Shown here in pieces: positions 7,234-49,731 of a DNA stretch of 64,000 bases (positions are counted from its first letter, which is position 1; each line of letters starts with the position of its first letter). Location of the stretch: assembly GCF_027052235.1 (NCBI RefSeq), contig NZ_JALUFF010000084.1:1-64000 (forward strand), given 5' to 3'. Under the pieces are notes generated by a model, which ran no database searches, had not been told where the DNA came from, and saw only the letters and a list, made by a program, of their open reading frames with translations. The position numbers and the translations under genes were made by a program. This DNA comes from Thermococcus sp. GTDB lineage: Archaea > Methanobacteriota_B > Thermococci > Thermococcales > Thermococcaceae.

Positions 7234-7410
7234 TGAGGCAACTTTGCTCTTCCTTTTACCCTCTCACTTTGTTGATTCCTAATCATACGTAAAGTTCCTT
7301 GAGGGGAAATAATACAATCATGTATAATAAGACTTAGACAATATATACCAAACATAGAGCTTCATAACAAAATCGAAAATTTTAAATACTCTAGCACATC
7401 ATACCCAAGT

Positions 7411-7432
7411 GACCACCCATCTGGGGGGGCGA
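7411..7432 (+). promoter_or_regulatory. shared leader element, copy A (C-rich then G-run before ATG)
   Basis: The bases before the start read CCACCCATCT followed by seven G, then CGA and the ATG. The G run doubles as the ribosome binding site and can pair with the C-rich run just upstream. A TATA-like TTTAAATAC lies near 7381-7389, so transcription probably starts close to the element. Similar elements precede the genes at 11830 and 29559 (minus). Confidence 0.5.
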
Positions 7433-8191
7433 ATGCGACAGAAACTAGCATGGTTTATGGCTCTGCTGTTGGTTGGAGCCATGCTCCATGGAGTGAGTGC
7501 CACCAGCTACAGCAAACAACCTGAAGTCAAAGTCAACACATACACAGTCACAGTGTATGTAAATGGCCAGAAAATCCCAGTGTTTGTGAAGAATGGGGTG
7601 GTGCAAATTCCCAATACTCCTGGAATGGACAGGAAAGAAGTTTTCATGGCAGTTAACAAGTATTTCTCTCTCAGGCACAAACAATCAACTGGGATATCAA
7701 GCCAATTATATGGACCAAACTCTGACTATGAACAGAGAAAGGCTTTCAGCATACCTCATCAAGGAGATGTTTACATCTCCGCGTATGCATATTTAGCCAT
7801 AGAGAATGATCAGTTCTCGGTAGTGACAGTTGGTGGATACTCCTCCGCAGCTTGCTGGATCCAGCCATACGACTATTGGTGGTCCCAAGATTATCCGGCA
7901 GAAGATTTGACCTTGGGAGTTAGGTTAAAGTTCGTTGCCCTCAGCGGTTCCGTATCTGTTTCAATCCCCTTAGGTACCGGTTTTTATGGAACCTCAGATG
8001 AAGCAGAGTACAGTATAACCCTCCACAACACAGACAACGCTGGAGTGAACTTTGACAACATAGAGGCAACTGCAATTTTTGGTATATGGCGTGTGGAGGA
8101 CCACACCACGGGTCAATTTTATTTCGGTGCCGTGGGAGGAAACACAAACTACATACAAGGAGCTAACGTCATCAAAGTCAGGAGGCTGTGA
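7433..8191 (+). CDS. secreted protein of unknown function (signal peptide MRQKLAWF)
   Basis: I do not recognise the family. The 252-aa product begins with a clear signal peptide (basic MRQK, hydrophobic core to about residue 19, GVSA as a likely cleavage site near residue 23). The mature part is rich in Tyr, Ser, Val and Gly with alternating patterns that suggest beta sheets. There are no obvious catalytic motifs. The start is taken as ATG 7433 because of the G-run binding site; an upstream in-frame GTG (7409) would add residues in front of the signal peptide. Base use is AT-richer than the core genes. The stop overlaps the start region of the next gene, so both probably share a transcript. 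Confidence 0.72.
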   Translation: MRQKLAWFMALLLVGAMLHGVSATSYSKQPEVKVNTYTVTVYVNGQKIPVFVKNGVVQIPNTPGMDRKEVFMAVNKYFSLRHKQSTGISSQLYGPNSDYEQRKAFSIPHQGDVYISAYAYLAIENDQFSVVTVGGYSSAACWIQPYDYWWSQDYPAEDLTLGVRLKFVALSGSVSVSIPLGTGFYGTSDEAEYSITLHNTDNAGVNFDNIEATAIFGIWRVEDHTTGQFYFGAVGGNTNYIQGANVIKVRRL

Positions 8192-8193
8192 GA

Positions 8194-10044
8194 ATGAAGA
8201 AAAGGGTTTTCTTCTCTTCTTTTTTAGTTCTAATTTTGTTGTTGGGGGTATTCTGGGAAACATCTCTCAACGGATGGAATACTCACAGAGAGGGCAACTC
8301 TATTGGGAATGAGGAGGTGAAATCCCGGCTTGAGTGTTTTCCAGGGTTTCTTAATCTCTCCACGTTTCTTGCCCAAAAATGGATTAATTACACATCAAAA
8401 AGACTGCATCTTGCTAAATGTCCAGAGGGAGGTTTTACGGAAATCGATGATACAATAACCCCCGATATTGTTTCAACGTACTATTTTGTATCAGCGCTAA
8501 AAATGATAAATCAAACTCCTTACAACAGACTTCAGACTATAAAATGGCTTCACAACAATGAAGGCAATCTCTTCAAAAATACGACGACTGACTATGATGC
8601 GGGTATTACCCCATTCTGGATAGTGTATTATGGAGTTATGACATTGAAAATGCTAAACTCATCCCCAAAGAACCCGAGTAAAATCATGAGATTCATATTA
8701 AATATGAAACAGAAAAATGGCTCTTTTGTGTATGATGGCAGGGACTTTACACCTCAGTCTGTGGAACTCTTACAGGTTCTCGGCTATAACCTGAGCAATC
8801 TCAAAGAAACCCGAGAATATTGCCTAGAAAGGTTTCAAAATCTCACACCACCCTGGGAATACAAAGGGCTTAATTTAATGGGGTTTTTGTTTAACTTTAT
8901 CAGTTATACTAAGTGCTTGAAGAGTATGGGGGTCAGTTATACAAAAACAAAGGAGTATCGGGAAGATGTCGCCTTTATCGAGAACCTGTCCAAAAATATC
9001 GGGAAGATACTTAAGAGCAAACCGCCTCTTTTTATAGTGGCTAAACTTACTCAAGTGCTTAGTGAGTACAATCTCCTGAACAACACCATCTCAGGGGAGA
9101 TTTACAATTATATAATGTCTCAAGAGCTACCTGATGGCGGATTTAACCTTTTTGGAAAGAACTACGGAGAGTTCCAGGGAACGTACTATGCTGTAAAGAC
9201 AATCGCTTTACTCGGCCAAAGACCGGATAAAAAAACAATAGGGTTCATACACAGCTGGGAAAGTCCTCTTGGAGGCTTCGCTTTCACGTTTCAAAAGTCC
9301 TGTGGGCCAATATTGACGTACATGGGAGTCTACGTTGCCAAGAAAATCGGAATACCCCTCAACAGAACAGCAATAGCTAAGTATCTGTCCCGTGCGTTAT
9401 ACAACAGATGGCCTTATTCCAGAGATGATCCAAGCCCATTATACTCAATCTACATGACTTACAGGGCATTAAATATCACCCTGAGTCCTGTAGATAAGGA
9501 CTACCTGAGAAATGAAACAGCTCGGTTAACAGAGTTGTACCTACGCAACAGGACGAACTCCCTCCTAATGGACACGGGCTGGATAGCCCTTCTCCGTTTA
9601 GGTCGAGCAACCGGGGTAAGAATTGGGGAGGACACTAAAAAACGTCTTATCCAAAATGTCTTATCCTTAAAAAATCCCGATGGAACATTTGGACCCCCTT
9701 CTAATAACACGGTACTGGTCCTCTACAGGACAGAGAACGCGGTACTGCTGCTCCATGCGTTGGGATACGATTACACTAATGAGACGACAGCTAAATTCAT
9801 ACTCAGCATGGAGCATGATGGCGGTTGGGGTTATCCAGATCTCTACAACACGTATAGAGCAGTGGGGGCACTAGCCTACATGGGCTACTGTCCAGAAGAC
9901 GTTCAGAGTTTGATAGGTTTTATCCATTCTTTAAAATACAAGTATGGTGGCTTTTTGTTCTATAGGGGAGAGAAAAGCTATGGGGGATTGCAGGAAACCT
10001 ACTATGCCCTTAGAACCTTGGAACTAATAGGAGCTATTAATTGA
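8194..10044 (+). CDS. exported protein with prenyltransferase/terpene-cyclase-type alpha toroid repeats
   Basis: A 616-aa protein with an N-terminal signal or anchor (MKKRVFFSSFLVLILLLGVFW). From about residue 40 to the end it carries repeats of 45-55 residues with the pattern QxxxGGF/GG-W ... TYYAVKTIALLG. Examples are SQELPDGGFNLFG, WESPLGGFAF, MEHDGGWGYPDLYNTYRAVGAL and KYKYGGFLFY...LQETYYALRTL. This is the pattern of (alpha/alpha)6 barrels such as protein prenyltransferase beta subunits and squalene cyclases. I see neither a DXDD cyclase motif nor a convincing zinc site, so catalysis is doubtful; a binding role outside the cell is equally possible. Many N-x-S/T sequons fit N-glycosylation. 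ATG 8194 has GGAGG 8 bases upstream. The AT-rich composition suggests a transferred gene. Confidence 0.72.
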   Translation: MKKRVFFSSFLVLILLLGVFWETSLNGWNTHREGNSIGNEEVKSRLECFPGFLNLSTFLAQKWINYTSKRLHLAKCPEGGFTEIDDTITPDIVSTYYFVSALKMINQTPYNRLQTIKWLHNNEGNLFKNTTTDYDAGITPFWIVYYGVMTLKMLNSSPKNPSKIMRFILNMKQKNGSFVYDGRDFTPQSVELLQVLGYNLSNLKETREYCLERFQNLTPPWEYKGLNLMGFLFNFISYTKCLKSMGVSYTKTKEYREDVAFIENLSKNIGKILKSKPPLFIVAKLTQVLSEYNLLNNTISGEIYNYIMSQELPDGGFNLFGKNYGEFQGTYYAVKTIALLGQRPDKKTIGFIHSWESPLGGFAFTFQKSCGPILTYMGVYVAKKIGIPLNRTAIAKYLSRALYNRWPYSRDDPSPLYSIYMTYRALNITLSPVDKDYLRNETARLTELYLRNRTNSLLMDTGWIALLRLGRATGVRIGEDTKKRLIQNVLSLKNPDGTFGPPSNNTVLVLYRTENAVLLLHALGYDYTNETTAKFILSMEHDGGWGYPDLYNTYRAVGALAYMGYCPEDVQSLIGFIHSLKYKYGGFLFYRGEKSYGGLQETYYALRTLELIGAIN

Positions 10045-11719: not shown

Positions 11720-11810
11720 TTTCTTTTTTCTTTAGTAATTTTAATTCAATGCATATTTCTACCACCCCTTAATTTTGGAAGAGCGGAAGAATTAAATAGT
11801 TCCTTTAGAT

Positions 11811-11829
11811 GACACCCTTTGGGGGTTGG
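11811..11829 (+). promoter_or_regulatory. shared leader element, copy B
   Basis: Reads GACACCCTTT, then GGGGG, TTGG and ATG. The same order as copy A (CACCC, a few T, a G run, ATG) appears 4.4 kb downstream of A. TATA-like ATTAAATAG is at about 11791-11799. The CCC and GGG can pair across the TTT, which would hide the ribosome binding site. Confidence 0.5.
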
Positions 11830-12990
11830 ATGCGACAGAAAGCGGCATGGGCTATGCTCGGAGTTCTGCTTGGAAGTCTCCTTATTGCTTCAACATACCC
11901 AACGAAGGAGAGCGTCCAGTATGGCACCCCAGCAATACAGAAGGTTGCAGGAGAGAACTACACCGCCTACATCCTCTATCCCAAGAAAGGCCTGCCCATA
12001 AGCACTCAGTTCTTGAAGGAGACTATACCAAAGCTCGTTGAGAAAAGCGCCCCAAACGCCAAGTTATATGCTTATTCGATTCCAGAGCTCCCAGAAGGTT
12101 CAGTCATAACCGGCTACGGAATAAAGGTAACCAATGATGGAAGGGTTGACATTTTCATCACCGCAACAAGAAGTGGAGCCCCAATACTGCCCGACAGAAT
12201 CAGGAGTGAGCTTTTTGAGTGGAGCAAAAGGGCACCGAAGTTCAAGCCTGACGTAATTCCCAGGGAAAAGGTCGGTGTCCTAGAGGGGTGGGAAGTTAAA
12301 ACCGTGGACAGCAACGGGAACGTGAAAGTTTACACCGGAGAAAGTGAACCCTACTGGCACAACTTTGGAAGACAGAGACTTAGATATGATGCTCCCCCCT
12401 ATGGAAAATTTTACGCCGAATTCTACATGTGGGGACTATGGAAAGACAACGACCCGCGCACAGAAACCTTCGCTTGTACCAAAGATCGCAGTGGTCACGG
12501 CATATACAGGATAACCCCAGGAATTCTGTTAAAAAGACAGGGGATCAGTGGGTATGGTGACTACAGAATAAGAAAAATCAAGATAGTTCATGATTGGGGT
12601 ATTAATCCAGCACTCAATGGACACCTGGATGATATGGGCCCTATAGGAGTTATCAATCGCTATCAAACCGTCCCAGTAAGTGTCGGGCCAGTTTCATACT
12701 CACTGGCAGTTGGTGGCTACAAAGTTTACGGAGATTCAATAGACCCTCCGGCAGTATGGACAATAAATACGCTAGGAACTGGGGGAATGTATACTGAAAC
12801 ATCAGAACATGCTGTGGGTATTATGGTGGCATCTAGCGGGGAAGTCCTGGAAAGAGCCCTCCACGATGGGAACTGGCATGCCGTTATTAGAATCAAACTT
12901 TCGGGAGAGTTCTCGGATAATGAATACGCTCTTCCCATAGGAATTCATAAAGAGTGGACAGCCCTTACATGGTACGTTAAGGTCGGCTGA
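11830..12990 (+). CDS. secreted protein of unknown function (signal peptide MRQKAAWAM)
   Basis: I do not recognise the family. The 386-aa product has a signal peptide (MRQKAAWAMLGVLLGSLLIAST) that resembles that of the gene at 7433, including the identical opening codons ATGCGACAGAAA. The mature part has a mixed N-terminal half (to about 130, YPKKGLPISTQFLKETIPKLVEKS...) and a beta-rich second half with many Tyr, Trp and Gly. No catalytic motif is evident. It interrupts the otherwise conserved order rpl24e-ndk-infB, which marks it as an insertion. ATG 11830 is chosen because the G run lies just before it; an upstream ATG at 11809 has no binding site. Confidence 0.72.
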   Translation: MRQKAAWAMLGVLLGSLLIASTYPTKESVQYGTPAIQKVAGENYTAYILYPKKGLPISTQFLKETIPKLVEKSAPNAKLYAYSIPELPEGSVITGYGIKVTNDGRVDIFITATRSGAPILPDRIRSELFEWSKRAPKFKPDVIPREKVGVLEGWEVKTVDSNGNVKVYTGESEPYWHNFGRQRLRYDAPPYGKFYAEFYMWGLWKDNDPRTETFACTKDRSGHGIYRITPGILLKRQGISGYGDYRIRKIKIVHDWGINPALNGHLDDMGPIGVINRYQTVPVSVGPVSYSLAVGGYKVYGDSIDPPAVWTINTLGTGGMYTETSEHAVGIMVASSGEVLERALHDGNWHAVIRIKLSGEFSDNEYALPIGIHKEWTALTWYVKVG

Positions 12991-14698: not shown

Positions 14699-14765
14699 GG
14701 AGGTTTTTAATCCTTGTCCCGAACCCTTTAAAAGCACCCGGCTGAGTTAGGCTTAGGTGATGGAA

Positions 14766-17700
14766 ATGACCAAGAGGATTAGACAGCCAATCATAGCGGT
14801 TCTCGGGCATGTGGATCACGGCAAGTGCCTCCTTCCAGAGGAGAGGGTGGTGCTCCCAAGCACTGGAATGGTCACACTCAAAGACCTCTTTGAAAGGGGC
14901 AAAGGCGTCGTTGAAAAGGACGAGGAGAAGGAGGTAAGGCTCCTCGGGGAGAGAGTAATAGGTGCCGTTAGCGACGGAAGACTGGCCCTTCTCAAAAGCC
15001 CGTACGTCTGGAGGGTGAGACACAGGGGCAAAATCGTAAGGGTTAAACTCAAGAACTGGCACAGCGTCGGCGTAACCCCCGAACATCCCTTCCTCACAAC
15101 GAGGGGATGGGTGAGGGCAGACCAGCTCAGGCCCGGAGACTACGTTGCCGTCCCGAGGTTCATCCACGGCAATGAGGATGAGGGGGTCTTTCTCTCCCAC
15201 GTATTTTCGAAGATTTCAAATGAGTGGCTTATAGCAAAGCTCGATAAGGAGGGCCTGAGGAAGGCCAAAGAACTGTTTAAGGGCGAGAAAGCATACAAAG
15301 TGGAGAAAAATGTCTTCCGCGCAGAGGACGTTGAAAGAATAGGCTGGGAACACGTTGAGAAGATAGCCTTTACCCCTAGGATTCACCGCTCAGGAAAGCC
15401 CCTCCACTACGTGAAGCTTCCAAAGACCGATGAGGAGTGGAAGGCCCTCTTTTACTTTGCCGGGGTCATGTTCGGCGACGGAAGCCAAGAGAAGATAGCG
15501 AACAACGACGTCGAGGTGTTTGAAAAACTGAGGAAAATCGAAAGCCTCGGAGTCGAGCTCAGGCGTGTCAGGAGGAAAACATCGTGGGAGATAGAGATAA
15601 GGAAAGGCAAAAACGCCCTTCTGCGCCTTCTCAGGCAGCTCTTCGAGTTTCCAGAGGAGAAGAAGGCCCACAGGATAAGGGTGCCCAACATCCTCTTCAT
15701 GGCACCGAAGGAATACACCGCCGGGTTCCTGAGGGGCTACTTTGACGCCGATGGCCACGTGAGCCTGAAGGATGCGAGAATCGAAGTGACGAGTGCCTCC
15801 AGGGAGTTTATCGAGGATCTCTCGCTCGTTCTCCTTCGCTACGGTATCGTTTCCAAGATATACCGCTCGGAGTACACCACACTGGTAATCTCCGGCAGGA
15901 GGAACCTTATAGCCTTTGAAAAGCACATCGGCTTCACGGTGAAGGAGAAAGCTGAAAGGCTCAGGCGCATCATCGAGAAGAGCAAAAAGAGCGAGCCGTA
16001 TCCAGTCTTTGAGGAACTTAGAAGGCTTAGACTGCTCTTCGGGTTTACAAGGGCGGAGCTCAACTCCTTCGTTCCATTCTACAGCAAATATGAGGGAAGC
16101 CAGGCTCCCAGCTACGAGACGCTGATGAAAATCCTCGATGCTATAGAGAAAGGCTCACCAACACTCCTCCGCAAGCTGGCAGTCCTTGAGGGACGTTCGA
16201 GGGATCACAACTACCTGAAGGCCCTTGAGAAAGACGGCCTGATCAAGGATGGAAGACTAACGGAGCTCGGCAGGGAGCTTCTTGAGGTCTGGCGCAACAG
16301 GGAGTTCGACTCCAGTGATGTGGAATACCTCCGCAACATAGCCGAGAACTTCGTTTTCATACCCGTTGAGGCGATTGAAGAGGAGGAATACGACGGCTAC
16401 GTCTACGATTTAACTACCGAGACCCACAACTTCGTGGCCAACGGAATACTCGTTCACAACACGACGCTCCTCGACAGGATAAGGCACACAAACGTCGCCG
16501 GCAAGGAAGCGGGAGGAATCACCCAGCACATCGGTGCGACCGAGGTTCCGATAGATGTCGTTAAACAGCTCGCCGGCCCGCTCATCAAGCTCTGGAAGGG
16601 CGAGATAAAGCTCCCCGGTTTGCTCTTCATAGACACGCCGGGCCACGAGGCATTCACCAGCTTGCGCGCGAGGGGTGGAAGTTTGGCCGATTTGGCCGTC
16701 CTCGTCGTTGACATTAACGAGGGCTTTCAGCCCCAGACCATAGAGAGCATCGAAATCCTGAGGAGGTACAGGACGCCCTTCATAGTTGCGGCCAACAAGA
16801 TAGACAGGATAAAGGGCTGGAAGGTCGAGGAAGACGAGCCGTTTTTAATCAACATCAAGAAGCAGGATCAGCGCGCCGTTCAGGAGCTTGAGACAAAACT
16901 CTGGGAGCTGATAGGAAAGTTCTACGAGATGGGCTTCCAGGCGAACCGCTTCGACCGCGTTCAGAACTTTACAAGGGAACTCGCCATAGTCCCGATTTCG
17001 GCCAAGTACGGAATAGGCGTTCCGGAACTACTCGTCCTCATAGCTGGCCTTTCCCAGAAGTACCTTGAGGAGAAGCTCAAGATAGAGGTCGAGGGACCGG
17101 CGAGGGGAACGATACTTGAGGTCAGGGAGGAGCTTGGCCTCGGCACAACCATAGACGTCATAATCTACGACGGAACACTCAGAAAGGACGACACGATAGT
17201 GGTTGGCGGAAAGGACAAGGCGATAGTTACCAAAATCCGCGCCCTGCTCAAACCCAAGCCCCTCGACGAGATTAGAGACCCGCGCTTCCGCTTCGATCAT
17301 GTTGATGAAGTTACGGCCGCGGCGGGTGTTAAGATAGCCGCCCCCGGTCTTGAGGAGGCTTTAGCCGGTTCGCCGGTTATAGCCGCCCGCTCAGAGGAGG
17401 AAATAGAGAAAGCCAAGCAAGAAATTCTGAGCCAGATACAGAGCGTCGTCATAAGCACGGGGAAGCTCGGCGTCATAGTCAAGGCCGACACCCTCGGAAG
17501 CCTTGAGGCCCTGAGCAAGGAGCTCCAGGAGAAGGGAATCCCGATAAGAAAGGCCGACGTCGGGAACGTCAGCAAAACAGACGTGATGGAGGCTTTGAGC
17601 GTTAGGGAGGAGGAGCCGAAGTACGGCGTCGTCCTCGGCTTCAACGTCAAGGTGAACGAGGACGCGGAGGAAGTAGCGAAGGCCAAGAGCGTTCCAATCT

Positions 17701-18197
17701 TCGTCGGCAACGTCATCTACAAGCTCATCGAGGACTACGAGGCGTGGGTTAAAGCGGAAGAAGAAAAGCGGAAGCGCGAGCTTTTGAAGAACGTTACCTT
17801 CCCGGGAGTTATCCGTCTCTACCCCGACGAGCGCTACGTCTTCAGGAGGAGCAAGCCGGCTATAGTCGGCGTCGAAGTCCTTGAGGGCAGGATAAGGCCG
17901 GGAGTTACGCTCATCAAAGAAACTGGTGAAAAAGTCGGCGTCGTCAAGTCAATCAAGAACAAGAACGACTTCGTGCAGGAGGCGAAGAAGGGCGACGCTG
18001 TTGCCATAGCGATCGAAGGAGCGATAGTCGGCAGGCACATCCACCCCGGCGAGACGCTCTACGTTGACCTCAGCAAGAACGACGTCATAGTGCTCCTCAA
18101 ACAGCTCAAGGATGAGCTTGACGAAAGCGACCTGAGGGCATTAAAGATGACCGCCAAGGTGAAGGCGAAGCAGGATCCGTTCTGGAGGGCGGTTTGA
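14766..18197 (+). CDS. infB: translation initiation factor aIF5B/IF-2, with intein
   Basis: GTPase that promotes initiator tRNA placement and subunit joining. The precursor is 1143 aa; without the intein it is 598 aa, the usual length in Thermococcales. The host sequence is split inside the P-loop: GHVDHGK (residues 14-20), intein (21-565), then TTLLDRIRHTNVAG. Other G motifs follow: GGITQHIGATEV, DTPGHEAF and NKIDRI. Domain II, the central alpha/beta domain and the C-terminal barrel (FPGVIRLYPDERYVFRRS) are complete. ATG 14766 is chosen because AGGTGA lies 5 bases upstream and the protein then begins like relatives. The 3' end is overlapped by the long minus-strand frame of the next gene. 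Confidence 0.96.
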   Translation: MTKRIRQPIIAVLGHVDHGKCLLPEERVVLPSTGMVTLKDLFERGKGVVEKDEEKEVRLLGERVIGAVSDGRLALLKSPYVWRVRHRGKIVRVKLKNWHSVGVTPEHPFLTTRGWVRADQLRPGDYVAVPRFIHGNEDEGVFLSHVFSKISNEWLIAKLDKEGLRKAKELFKGEKAYKVEKNVFRAEDVERIGWEHVEKIAFTPRIHRSGKPLHYVKLPKTDEEWKALFYFAGVMFGDGSQEKIANNDVEVFEKLRKIESLGVELRRVRRKTSWEIEIRKGKNALLRLLRQLFEFPEEKKAHRIRVPNILFMAPKEYTAGFLRGYFDADGHVSLKDARIEVTSASREFIEDLSLVLLRYGIVSKIYRSEYTTLVISGRRNLIAFEKHIGFTVKEKAERLRRIIEKSKKSEPYPVFEELRRLRLLFGFTRAELNSFVPFYSKYEGSQAPSYETLMKILDAIEKGSPTLLRKLAVLEGRSRDHNYLKALEKDGLIKDGRLTELGRELLEVWRNREFDSSDVEYLRNIAENFVFIPVEAIEEEEYDGYVYDLTTETHNFVANGILVHNTTLLDRIRHTNVAGKEAGGITQHIGATEVPIDVVKQLAGPLIKLWKGEIKLPGLLFIDTPGHEAFTSLRARGGSLADLAVLVVDINEGFQPQTIESIEILRRYRTPFIVAANKIDRIKGWKVEEDEPFLINIKKQDQRAVQELETKLWELIGKFYEMGFQANRFDRVQNFTRELAIVPISAKYGIGVPELLVLIAGLSQKYLEEKLKIEVEGPARGTILEVREELGLGTTIDVIIYDGTLRKDDTIVVGGKDKAIVTKIRALLKPKPLDEIRDPRFRFDHVDEVTAAAGVKIAAPGLEEALAGSPVIAARSEEEIEKAKQEILSQIQSVVISTGKLGVIVKADTLGSLEALSKELQEKGIPIRKADVGNVSKTDVMEALSVREEEPKYGVVLGFNVKVNEDAEEVAKAKSVPIFVGNVIYKLIEDYEAWVKAEEEKRKRELLKNVTFPGVIRLYPDERYVFRRSKPAIVGVEVLEGRIRPGVTLIKETGEKVGVVKSIKNKNDFVQEAKKGDAVAIAIEGAIVGRHIHPGETLYVDLSKNDVIVLLKQLKDELDESDLRALKMTAKVKAKQDPFWRAV
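14826..16460 (+). other. intein in infB with LAGLIDADG homing endonuclease
   Basis: A 545-residue in-frame insert that begins with Cys (CLLPEERVVLPSTG) and ends with VHN before Thr, the classic splice junction. Block B is visible as GVTPEHPFLTTRG near residue 85. The endonuclease has both dodecapeptide motifs, FAGVMFGDGSQ and FLRGYFDADGHV, with their acidic residues intact, so it may still be active. The site inside the P-loop matches the IF2 intein known from several Thermococcales and Methanocaldococcus. Confidence 0.95.
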
Positions 18198-26551: not shown

Positions 26552-27229
26552 CTAGGGCCTAAAATCTTTCCTCCTAAAAACATTATAAGAAAATACTAAT
26601 AGGAATAATGAAATAGCGAACGCTATTATGTACCCTGTCTGGGCAGATAGTGTGAGTTTAGCTACTTTTACTGTGGCCCCAATGGGTGCTAGGACGTATG
26701 CAACTAAGGTAACAACTAAACTTGAAGGGTATGGTTTCGATAACAGAATCAGAAGTGCCATCGGAACCGCCGACGTTAGTATATAAAACGAAAGCGTGCC
26801 TCCCAAGAAATCAAGCCAAGTCATTAAGGTCATCATTATGGAAAGGTATGTTGGAATTTTGAGCAGAATCGGAGTTACTAATTCTGAATATCCATGAAAG
26901 TATGAAACAAGGGAGACTAATGAGACTCCAATTAAGAGGCCGAGGAAAGAAGCAGTAAGTCTTCCTACAAAAACATTTTCAGGGCCATTAAACAAAGAAA
27001 GCTCAAACAAAGTTACTCTTGTGCTTCTGAACAGATGAGAGGCTATTAAAACTCCGTAGATAGGGAGAAATATAATCTCCACCACAACCACAAACTCATA
27101 AAGGCCGAACCTTGTGGCATCGGTCAACGTGTACCAAGTCCCTATGATTAAAAGACCCAAAAGTATTTCAGTTACTGGATGGGGAAACATGTTCTTCAGA
27201 TACCATCTAACGGCTTTTGGAGTATACAT
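26552..27229 (-). CDS. ABC transporter permease
   Basis: A 225-aa integral membrane protein with six hydrophobic segments (starting ILLGLLIIGTWYTL, VVVVEIIFLPIYGVLIA, LGLLIGVSLVSLVSYF, then three more). This is the usual ABC-2 type permease size. It lacks a substrate motif. It is the last gene of a four-gene operon and its start lies inside the end of the ATPase gene (23-base overlap). The product probably forms the channel used with that ATPase, for export of or protection against a peptide or protein. ATG 27229 is used; an ATG at 27259 would overlap more. Confidence 0.75.
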   Translation of the reverse strand: MYTPKAVRWYLKNMFPHPVTEILLGLLIIGTWYTLTDATRFGLYEFVVVVEIIFLPIYGVLIASHLFRSTRVTLFELSLFNGPENVFVGRLTASFLGLLIGVSLVSLVSYFHGYSELVTPILLKIPTYLSIMMTLMTWLDFLGGTLSFYILTSAVPMALLILLSKPYPSSLVVTLVAYVLAPIGATVKVAKLTLSAQTGYIIAFAISLFLLVFSYNVFRRKDFRP

Positions 27230-28022
27230 AGCGCAACCCCGCCTTTTTAATTCCAACAACTCTCCCGCCTAGGAACATGCTCACAACTTCCTCACGGCTG
27301 GCCCTAACTATTAGAGTGGAACCGAACCGGTATATGGTCTCCACCTGAGGATTAACGTTGACATCTGCGAGCATTACTTCATAAATCCCTTCCGAGAATA
27401 GCTTTTTTCTATCTCCCTCCCAAACTTTCTGGCCCTCTTTTAAGACTAAAAAGTAATCTGCAATGGATTCCCCCTCTTCAATGTCATGAGTTGCTATTAT
27501 AACACCGTTCTTCTGCGAGATAATATCGTCCACAATACCAGCCCTGTAGGAGTCGAGATGTGCCGTAGGTTCATCGAGTATCAAAACCTCGGACTCACAG
27601 GAGAGAGCCACAAGAAGATTGCATAGTTGTGCTTGACCGCTCGACAGTGAGTTCAGTCTTTCTTCCATAAACCTGTCGATTTCAAAAGCTTCTACTATCT
27701 CGTCAATGTTTGAACAAAGGGGATTTGCTCGAAGAGTTTCCACGAGGTCTTTAACCCTGATGGGAACTCTAAAATCAGGTTTTTCAAAGGAGTACCTAAT
27801 GGCAATCCATTTATCCTTTCTTCTGTATGGTTCCCACCCGTTTATCTCAGCTCTCCCGGTTGTTGGATGCATTATCCCAGAGAGGACGGATAAGAGAGTA
27901 GTTTTTCCACTTCCGTTGTGTCCAATAAGGGCCAGTCTCTCTGTATCGGCCTTGAAAGTTAAATCCCGTATCCCCCATATTTCACCGTACTTAACCCCCA
28001 AGTTCTCTGCCCTAACAATCAT
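27207..28022 (-). CDS. ABC transporter ATP-binding protein
   Basis: A 271-aa ABC ATPase with Walker A GHNGSGKTT near residue 34, signature LNSLSSGQAQ near 127, Walker B VLILDEPTAHLD near 147 and the switch histidine in IIATHD. The Q-loop glutamine is not evident (YSFEKPDFRVPIRV), which is odd. The C-terminal extension (220-271) is of the kind seen in bacteriocin-type or drug-export ATPases. It overlaps the preceding membrane-protein gene by 4 bases and the permease gene by 23, so translation is coupled. Confidence 0.85.
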   Translation of the reverse strand: MIVRAENLGVKYGEIWGIRDLTFKADTERLALIGHNGSGKTTLLSVLSGIMHPTTGRAEINGWEPYRRKDKWIAIRYSFEKPDFRVPIRVKDLVETLRANPLCSNIDEIVEAFEIDRFMEERLNSLSSGQAQLCNLLVALSCESEVLILDEPTAHLDSYRAGIVDDIISQKNGVIIATHDIEEGESIADYFLVLKEGQKVWEGDRKKLFSEGIYEVMLADVNVNPQVETIYRFGSTLIVRASREEVVSMFLGGRVVGIKKAGLRYVYSKSR

Positions 28023-28930
28023 CTTCCCGACCTCCCAGCCAAGATAAGGAGAAATATCCCCGCGAGGATAAAGACATAATCCAGGGGGGCGCTGAACTGA
28101 GTAAAACTGGCCTCAAAAGCACCAAGCCAGTTCTGAGAGGACGGCCGAACGTTTGTTTTCAGAAGGCTCAACACTGTTATTGTGGGAAACCTCTCGACGT
28201 AGCTCCAGCTCTCGTTGGGCACTAGTTCTGCAGGTATAAACTTGGGCATGTCCAGCTGCTCGGGTGTCACCCCAATGGGAACGTGAGTGGGCAGACCACT
28301 AATCATTGAAGGATATCGAAGATGGGCATTCCTACCAATAACGACAAGAGTTCTGGCAAAATATCTGTCGTCTGAACGGTAGTATGCTATCAAGTCAACT
28401 TTTTTGCTGAGATTTCCCTGCAAATCTGGGACATATATTACGGGGAATCCGACAGAATTGGGAGAGAAATCAAATGAAAATGGGTATTTTCGCTCTGTTA
28501 ATTTCACGGTTTTTGAGTAGTTCAGCGCGTGAACTGTTACTTGACCTTGAGGAAATAAAGTTCGTATAAGCGAATCGTTTGTGGGCAAGATAAGGGTCTT
28601 TCTGAAGATGGGACTCAGATTTCCTATTATTTGACCCGACCTGTGGGTGCTATAAAGGGGATAGATAACACTTTCATTACCGCTCTGATCGTAGAGTGTG
28701 AAATTCACTTCGAACTTTCCATTTCCCATATATGTCATGTTGTAAATCATTACCAAGTTGAAAAAAGGATAGTATCCAGCATAAGCAAATCTGTTTCCCG
28801 GTTTTAAAACAATATGAGGGCTTTTGATGTGTATCAGTGAATAGTATCCAACTACTGGATACACCGCAAGAAGCACACCCATGAAGATCAGGATAATGGC
28901 TATTGTGTTGTATATTCTATTTGCACCCAT
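28019..28930 (-). CDS. extracytoplasmic protein with N- and C-terminal membrane anchors
   Basis: I do not recognise the family. The 303-aa product has a membrane helix at each end (IYNTIAIILIFMGVLLAVYPVVGYY and YVFILAGIFLLILAG), with about 240 residues outside between them. That part is beta-rich with several N-x-S/T sequons. This design fits an accessory subunit of the ABC transporter that holds or receives the secreted product of the first gene. GAGGGATGCAGA precedes ATG 28930. The gap to the upstream gene is 50 bases. Confidence 0.65.
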   Translation of the reverse strand: MGANRIYNTIAIILIFMGVLLAVYPVVGYYSLIHIKSPHIVLKPGNRFAYAGYYPFFNLVMIYNMTYMGNGKFEVNFTLYDQSGNESVIYPLYSTHRSGQIIGNLSPIFRKTLILPTNDSLIRTLFPQGQVTVHALNYSKTVKLTERKYPFSFDFSPNSVGFPVIYVPDLQGNLSKKVDLIAYYRSDDRYFARTLVVIGRNAHLRYPSMISGLPTHVPIGVTPEQLDMPKFIPAELVPNESWSYVERFPTITVLSLLKTNVRPSSQNWLGAFEASFTQFSAPLDYVFILAGIFLLILAGRSGR

Positions 28931-28980: not shown

Positions 28981-29559
28981 TCAGCTACCCACCTCAATGG
29001 GTATTTCAAATGAGACCCCAATGTCTCTGAGGAGGTCAACATTCGCTGAGGTTCCTCCCCAGGTGTCTACATAGCCAAAGATGTGGAACTTGAACTGGAC
29101 ATTAACATTGGGCTCCAAACCAGGTTTTTCCTGAGGTGTTATGTTTTTGGAAGTTGGGTTGCCTCCTGAGGCCACTATGTACACTTCAAGTTCACTTGAG
29201 CCATCGTATGAAGCCTTCGTTAGTCCATAATGTGTTAATGTATCAAGATGCCATGTGCCATGACCAACCATCTGGGTGGGGGCAGTGTAGGAGTCATCAT
29301 CGTACCACCATGCATGAGAACCTGTGCCAGAAGATATCCCAAAGTGGAATCTTGTCTGAGGTCCCAAGACGAACCTGCCATTCTGAACTTCATATTGAGC
29401 AGCTATGTATGCTTTGGCCGTTGAGAAGCTTCCATGTAAAACCGCCGAAAGTGTTATAATCCCTGCCCCACTGCTTGTCGCCACTGCAGGGGTTGCCATT
29501 GCCGCAACTAAAAAAACAATCATGCCAAGGGTAATCCCTACCAACTTTCTCTTGTTCAT
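28981..29559 (-). CDS. secreted protein of unknown function, first gene of the ABC operon
   Basis: A 192-aa product with a signal peptide (MNKRKLVGITLGMIVFLVAAMATPAVA, cleavage likely near residue 27). The mature part is small, Gly/Ser/Thr-rich and beta-like (ITLSAVLHGSFSTAKAYIAA, RFHFGISSGTGSHAWWYDDD, NVQFKFHIFGYVDTWGG). No cysteines or catalytic motifs are seen. It could be the substrate or the target of the ABC system encoded after it. ATG 29559 is chosen because the shared G-run leader lies directly upstream. Confidence 0.7.
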   Translation of the reverse strand: MNKRKLVGITLGMIVFLVAAMATPAVATSSGAGIITLSAVLHGSFSTAKAYIAAQYEVQNGRFVLGPQTRFHFGISSGTGSHAWWYDDDSYTAPTQMVGHGTWHLDTLTHYGLTKASYDGSSELEVYIVASGGNPTSKNITPQEKPGLEPNVNVQFKFHIFGYVDTWGGTSANVDLLRDIGVSFEIPIEVGS

Positions 29560-29583
29560 ACGCCCCCCCCACTTGGTGGTGGG
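29560..29583 (-). promoter_or_regulatory. shared leader element, copy C
   Basis: On the minus strand: CCCACCACCAAGT, then eight G, CGT and ATG. CCCAC and GTGGG can form a five-pair stem that takes in the ribosome binding site. A TATA-like CTTATAAATA lies near 29606-29615. It has the same order as copies A and B, although the signal peptide after it differs. Confidence 0.5.
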
Positions 29584-29808
29584 CAATTACAATTTCCCTA
29601 GTTTAATATTTATAAGTTTTGGCTCAATCATCTAATTAACGGAAAAGGTGTTAAAAATAAGTTTTCTTTCCAAACTCCTTAGAGGGTCACAATGATGTTG
29701 TCAGTGCTGAAGAGTATTGACGGGTTCATCGCCAGAACCTCATAACATTTAGGAGTCTCCTTGAGGCTTGTGAGCAGGAGGGTAGTAAAAGGTGAACCGG
29801 GCTTCGAG

Positions 29809-30537: not shown

Positions 30538-30674
30538 GCAACCACCAAAAGAACTTTGAGGGGGAGGATAAAAAGCCTGCGAAGCTGTAGCCCAATGGGA
30601 GCTATTCCCGGCTGGGATGTGATAAGTTACCTACCGGCGGAGGGCATTTAAGGGTTAGCTTCCTAAACACCAAC

Positions 30675-46948: not shown

Positions 46949-47003
46949 GCTCGGCTGCGAGGGTAGTCATCACTCCTCAGCTAGCGAAATTCTCGTCATC
47001 GCC
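46949..47003 (-). ncRNA. candidate C/D box guide sRNA
   Basis: On the minus strand: box C ATGACGA (46992-46998), 12 bases, box D' CTGA (46976-46979), 3 bases, box C' GTGATGA (46966-46972), 12 bases, box D CCGA (46950-46953), with GGC and GCC able to pair at the two ends. The 12-3-12 spacing is exactly that of thermococcal 2'-O-methylation guides. Boxes C and D each differ from consensus by one T-to-C change. It abuts the stop of the gene at 46577. The targets are not assigned. Confidence 0.5.
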
Positions 47004-47050
47004 CCCCTACCTTTTGTCTTCCCCTTTAATGCATTTTCGGAGGTTGGGTC

Positions 47051-49654: not shown

Positions 49655-49731
49655 TGGTGGGCCCGCGGGGATTCGAACCCCGGACCTCCACCTTGTAAGG
49701 GTGGCGTCATGACCATCTAGACCACGGGCCC
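49655..49731 (-). tRNA. tRNA-Val (TAC), CCA encoded
   Basis: On the minus strand the acceptor GGGCCCG pairs with CGGGCCC, followed by A and an encoded CCA (49655-49657). The anticodon arm is CCACC-CTTACAA-GGTGG with TAC in the loop, reading Val codons. The T arm is CCGGGGTTCGAATCCCCG-like. There is no intron. It ends 150 bases beyond the last CRISPR repeat. Confidence 0.95.

Follow-up and report, generated by a model that had tools for sequence, protein, structure and literature searches.

Three genes for exported proteins in one stretch of Thermococcus DNA have the same order of bases directly before their start codons, which raises the question of whether this short leader is an element in its own right, and whether it acts on translation. 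The stretch (hereafter, the window) comprises positions 1-64,000 of the forward strand of contig NZ_JALUFF010000084.1 from Thermococcus sp. GCF_027052235.1, whose whole genome is 1.89 Mb. The first-pass annotation of this window described a C-rich segment, a few bases, a G run that would serve as ribosome binding site and then the ATG; it proposed that the C and G runs pair and hide the binding site, that slippage in the G run could alter its spacing to the ATG, and that the leader could be a translational switch or a heat- or salt-sensitive hairpin. As to their sequences, the three leaders are exactly as claimed, with ATGs at 7433, 11830 and 29559 (minus strand) and G runs of 7, 5 and 8.

The first gene, on the plus strand (7433..8191), encodes a secreted protein of 252 aa (family A) with the signal peptide MRQKLAWFMALLLVGAMLHGVSA and no Pfam or NCBIfam match. 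Its leader occupies 7410-7435 (TGACCACCCATCTGGGGGGGCGAATG), and the TATA box (TTTAAATA, 7381..7388) lies 28 nt, as measured by script, ahead of a C-rich 5′ arm (GTGACCACCC, 7409..7418), which sits on the expected transcription start and was placed by a sequence-only position model of 57 leaders. The seven Gs at 7423..7429 form both the Shine-Dalgarno sequence and the 3′ arm, and pair with the C arm in the predicted fold. The family B gene (11830..12990, plus strand; 386 aa, signal peptide MRQKAAWAMLGVLLGSLLIAS, no family match) has a TATA box at 11791..11798 (ATTAAATA), a leader at 11810-11832 (TGACACCCTTTGGGGGTTGGATG), a 5′ arm at 11809..11818 (ATGACACCCT) that is a shortened form of the TTGACAACCC consensus, and five Gs at 11821..11825, again as Shine-Dalgarno sequence and 3′ arm. 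On the minus strand, the family C gene (28981..29559; 192 aa, signal peptide MNKRKLVGITLGMIVFLVAAMATPAVA, no family match) follows a TATA box at 29608..29615 (TTATAAAT) and a leader at 29584-29557 (GCCCACCACCAAGTGGGGGGGGCGTATG), in which the 5′ arm (GCCCACCACC) spans 29575..29584 and the eight Gs with the same double role span 29563..29570. The product of the second gene in the family A operon (8194-10044, plus strand) is 616 aa long and combines a signal peptide with an alpha-alpha toroid (prenyltransferase-like) domain. Directly 3′ of the family C gene, and apparently in one operon with it, the minus strand (26552-28930) encodes a protein of 303 aa whose N-terminus is hydrophobic, an ABC transporter ATPase and a membrane protein.

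The leader pattern is a trait of few genes in this genome. The pattern CACCN{2,9}G5N{2,6}ATG has three matches in the window, whereas 100 dinucleotide shuffles average 0.29 and never exceed 2. Because GGGGGN{2,6}ATG alone is not enriched there (9 vs. 10.2 expected), the distinctive part is the G run joined to a C-rich arm. Genome-wide, the full pattern matches 15 times; four matches precede long frames with a start of their own, namely the three leaders and a non-exported protein (L001), and most others fall within genes. Requiring a TATA box, C3 and G5 across the whole genome returned eight matches (none in the reversed control) at six places: the three leaders, an exported-protein gene of family I that lies beyond the window (G000:C30), an AOR-family gene and a non-coding site. 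Among 49 automatically picked leaders in the window, these three are the only ones with a G run of at least 5 directly before the start; as had been stated of the core genes, the others have GGTGA, GGAGG or similar binding sites, or no clear site. Nor is the leader general to exported genes, since the window's other genes with a hydrophobic N-terminus have ordinary binding sites, and the other TATA boxes in the window are without this element.

Protein-similarity searches with the three proteins in 61 genomes of the same genus recovered homologues of family A in 12 genomes and of family C in 8, and matches to family B in 31. Several family B matches span the first 30-50 residues only and represent further families (D and E) that have the same leader and the same signal peptide, MRQKVVWFxLGVLVGSLFVVSAYP. 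In nearly all A, B and C orthologues with intact starts we find the order TATA box, 5′ arm, loop, G-rich arm and ATG, the 5′ arm being of the TTGACAACCC type in families A and B and of the GCCCACCACC type in family C; this layout is real and conserved in Thermococcus orthologues. Across 57 leaders, the TATA box lies 26-28 nt from the 5′ arm with few exceptions, among them the window's family B leader, in which this distance is shorter than in its orthologues; the two arms are separated by anything from 0 to 6 nt. In T. kodakarensis the median distance from TATA box to transcription start is 23 bp (PMC4247193), and the 5′ arm is expected to start at or beside the first base of the mRNA. Protein searches extended the layout to families F and I: all eight family F genes with an intact N-terminus carry TTGAYAACCTCTTTGGGGGG-like leaders, and most of 30 family I leaders, collected across genera, carry AACCCGTTGGGGGGGTCG. 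In one genus (g4) the family I arms differ yet remain complementary (CCTCA...TGAGG; CCTC/GAGG), and in another (g3) the G-rich site is kept and the C arm is lost.

To which genes the leader belongs could be asked with a model of the leader only, trained on 38 leaders and run on the 61 genomes at E-values up to 0.1. Because RNAalifold called no pair on the alignment used, this model is sequence-only. It returned 51 matches, 49 of which end at the start codon of a frame with a signal peptide (past which some of the frames are interrupted); the two exceptions have E-values of 0.07-0.08. The proposed tie between the pattern and a set of exported proteins is therefore borne out by these 49 matches, and it extends to families outside the training set: F (MRKWVTMLLLGLLLLS), H (MKKAITWFLVGV) and, in another genus, I (MRRRALLGIFVILLVV). 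Given that 6.3% of T. kodakarensis proteins are predicted to be secreted (quoted in PMC8416519), the chance that three untrained families are all secreted is about 0.00025, assuming independence. Thirty-three genomes of the order's other genera gave two matches, both in family I. By a crude hydropathy test, 64 of the 65 collected proteins pass, and the remaining one also starts like a signal peptide. A scan of the genus for TATA box, C3 and G6 yielded forward matches that far exceed the reversed control; those at gene starts belong to secreted families, with a family J added, except for an acyl-CoA synthetase subunit and the AOR-family gene, and the remaining places checked are within or beside coding frames. 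The secreted proteins themselves received no function from sequence-based structure searches or family libraries, and the structures predicted from single sequences for the mature B and A proteins had low confidence, with pLDDT values of 35 and 37.

The AOR-family gene was considered as a cytoplasmic carrier of the leader and rejected: its orthologues share a different element, with no pairing between a C arm and a G run. This gene (L069/L324, near 1800 of G000:C48; orthologues L325-L353) is present in all 61 genomes of the genus, and its element, TAACAC(T/C)(C/T)(G/A)GAGTGATAC, is strongly conserved between the TATA box and a GGGGTGA-type binding site. The CACT-CGG-AGTG within it could form a small hairpin or serve as an operator, and the element has no Rfam match. 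Some carriers of the secreted-protein leader are broken: a family D gene (L107, G047:C49) has a stop at codon 3, a family C gene (L060, G045:C191) has an in-frame TGA, and the family I gene of the window's own genome (L067, G000:C30) has a frame break. Such genes may reflect fast turnover or assembly errors.

The predicted folds of the window's leaders at 37°C have energies of -7.3 (A), -5.3 (B) and -13.0 (C) kcal/mol, compared with a window mean of -5.1. Family C's leader is the most stable in the window and alone stands out from that mean; the A and B leaders do not exceed ordinary ones in stability, and some cytoplasmic genes (32288, 51509) have stronger binding-site hairpins than these two. 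In predicted folds of most leaders, the Shine-Dalgarno G run is the 3′ arm of the stem. When arms were placed by sequence only in 51 distinct leaders, allowing five outer and three inner pairs, 84.3% of the pair cells were formed, versus 45-63% in slid registers, although the register had been picked from folds of the same sequences, which favors it in this control. Covariation was 0.337, versus 0.301 (sd 0.012) after shuffling; none of 500 shuffles reached 0.337. Native arms outperformed swapped arms in families B, D and E combined (p = 0.011 at 37°C and 0.002 at 75°C); at 37°C, families A, C, F and I taken singly gave no significance. Arms that differ can still be complementary, as in one family A leader (L019, GACCACTT/GAGGTGGTC). 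With most of the family's other 5′ arms, its 3′ arm pairs at least as well, and compensation in this leader and in a close pair (L059/L060) was rejected when arm swaps revealed no specificity. Leaders fold more stably than the 30 nt upstream of them (-8.2 vs. -1.6 kcal/mol), a gap of which base composition explains much. Since these sequences themselves supplied the register, support for the pairing of the arms as RNA is moderate. Of the earlier proposal that the C and G runs pair, what stands is predicted pairing in most orthologues, with some covariation; within the window, only the family C fold stands out.

Two DNA-level candidates were also considered. An operator with fixed half-sites is weakened by the 0-6 nt variation of the gap, and because this gap varies while the distance to the TATA box is steady, an RNA hairpin fits better than a DNA operator. 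SurR-like sites have the form GTTnnnAAC, and such a site was rejected, the leader having the opposite order (AAC...GTT) and varying spacing. The highly conserved bases of the 5′ arm include TTGA and a second A that is unpaired in the model, and therefore promoter or protein contacts are also indicated.

Predicted folding energies reach zero at about 75-95°C in most leaders, which is the growth range, with energy models that are extrapolated to these temperatures. At 85°C the predicted hairpins are marginal: accessibility of the binding site is about 0.7, compared with 0.85 in shuffled controls, so that shuffled leaders are likewise open. A switch operated by heat or salt is possible on such predicted energies. 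Among orthologues the G run ranges from 2 to 13 in length (7 vs. 8 in two near-identical cassettes of one genome, G047), and because the spacer from the last G run to the ATG nonetheless stays at 3-4 nt (50 of 62 leaders), a change of spacing by slippage is not supported. Free variation of the G run with no compensating change in the C run, which the first-pass annotation had named as an outcome that would speak against it, is what the orthologues display, the two run lengths having no clear relation (Spearman 0.21, p = 0.09).

How the leader came to be shared is partly visible in the genes behind it. Families of the MRQK type have promoter, leader and signal peptide in common and differ in their mature parts, so the sharing is in part that of a common or recombining 5′ module. 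One pair of genes in G047, a family B gene and the family D gene that stops at codon 3, is nearly identical in promoter, leader and signal peptide and completely divergent beyond them. At the DNA level, the signal peptide of family B is conserved at 76%, versus 52-60% for the promoter, leader and mature part. A remote homology links the mature B, D and E proteins, and none was detected between the mature part of family A and that of B or E. The arms are also present in C, F, I and J, four families whose signal peptides are of other kinds. Descent or recombination thus accounts for part of the leader sharing, and separate use of the arrangement, in these four families, for another part.

The reading that we favor, with a probability of about 0.5, is that of a lineage-specific 5′-end hairpin leader in Thermococcaceae that damps or gates the translation of a small set of secreted proteins. 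The untranslated region would be about 24-28 nt long and nearly all one short hairpin, whose C-rich 5′ arm would begin at or beside the first base of the mRNA and whose G-rich 3′ arm would be the Shine-Dalgarno sequence, ending 3-4 nt before the ATG. The leader goes with a small number of secreted-protein families whose distribution is patchy, and we infer that it most likely competes with 16S rRNA for the G run, leading to lower or gated initiation. In MRQK-type families, the leader travels with promoter and signal peptide as one conserved module before divergent mature proteins. The partner of the G run is presumably the anti-Shine-Dalgarno sequence; the 3′ end of the 16S rRNA was not matched in the genome by the pattern used. 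A broader form of this reading, in which 5′-terminal hairpins melting at 75-95°C gate fast-evolving secreted proteins as a heat-responsive regulon, and the unit of promoter, hairpin and signal peptide recombines between genes, seems to us quite unlikely.

The same leaders could instead consist of a promoter or initiator followed by a strong G-rich binding site, TTGAC being the initiator and CC or CCC a contact for a regulator or RNA polymerase, with complementarity as a by-product. The fixed distance from TATA box to arm would follow naturally, as would the conservation of TTGA and of the second A, to which the model gives no partner; members of a family also have upstream CGAAA-type BRE and further promoter sequence in common, and the hairpins are weak at 85°C. 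Yet the C arm differs by family (GACAACCC, GCCCACCACC, CCTCA) with complementarity to the G arm kept, the gap between arms varies, and the window's other TATA boxes occur without the element, so that we consider this explanation possible though not probable. If the hairpin instead protected the mRNA, its position at the 5′ terminus blocking 5′-3′ decay and so stabilizing the messages of secreted proteins, the binding site would lie in the stem merely because a short leader offers no other room, and the 5′ arm does begin at the expected mRNA 5′ end; however, the predicted hairpins are marginal at growth temperature, and we hold protection to be unlikely.

Shared ancestry might by itself account for the similarity, if a cassette of promoter, leader and signal peptide had been duplicated and recombined with no shared regulation. 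The B and D genes of G047, with nearly the same 5′ end before different mature parts, are what such a process would leave, and the signal-peptide DNA is the best-conserved part of family B, whose mature protein is distantly homologous to those of D and E. Families C, F, I and J, however, keep the arms despite their different signal peptides, and the mature part of A was not detectably related to that of B or E. Sharing and function are mutually compatible. Descent as the whole explanation appears very unlikely, and the hairpin leader acting on translation remains our preferred account.

Hairpins that hide the Shine-Dalgarno sequence include the bacterial RNA thermometers of the FourU and ROSE types. 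The leader resembles these in that a short stem is predicted immediately ahead of the start codon, its 3′ arm containing the binding site, with melting that extrapolated energy models place within the range of growth temperatures; it differs in being archaeal, in that the hairpin is the whole leader with a G run as binding site, and in being known from predicted folds. The fluoride riboswitch of T. kodakarensis is described as the only natural archaeal riboswitch determined by experiment (PMC8241225). It too is a 5′ leader in Thermococcus, where control of translation by the present leader would be a further parallel, but at about 25 nt this leader is too short for a known aptamer and, by that measure, is not a riboswitch. 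No Rfam family matches it at or near threshold, and the consensus TTGACAACCC...GGGGGGGTCGG, inspected by eye alone, is without the tandem G-A pair beside a 3-nt bulge of an L7Ae-type kink-turn.

Secreted proteins with a conserved signal peptide and a variable mature part include conotoxins and the SVM proteins of phytoplasmas. The present families likewise have a signal peptide better conserved than the mature part; unlike those systems they are archaeal, and the untranslated leader is also common to them. VARTIG modules are Thermococcales secreted proteins whose variable parts are spread by recombination (PMC8416519), features that recur here, but in VARTIG the variation affects the C-terminal Ig domain of a large protein, whereas our families vary in the mature protein behind a constant promoter, leader and signal peptide. 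The collected proteins have no Pfam Ig/CARDB match and no DNNxxxGG tail, and thus are not VARTIG proteins of the arCOG07710 type.

We found no description of this leader in the open-access papers searched. There is hardly any documentation of archaeal translation being controlled by leader structure, and the part that the Shine-Dalgarno site plays in vivo in euryarchaea had not been investigated (PMC7531240). A very short conserved leader hairpin, on a defined small gene set in a genetically tractable genus, would make such control directly testable, and the leader marks several unannotated secreted-protein families as one likely co-regulated group.

Elsewhere in the window are two C/D box guide RNAs, sR39 (46949-47003, minus strand) and sR10 (30591-30643, plus strand), and a tRNA (49658-49731, minus strand). 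The segment GGGGGGCGATG (46997-47007) overlaps sR39 at its edge and does not serve any long frame as leader. A large frame at 14757-18197 (plus strand), the start of which resembles translation initiation factor IF-2, contains an apparent intein right after GHVDHGK.
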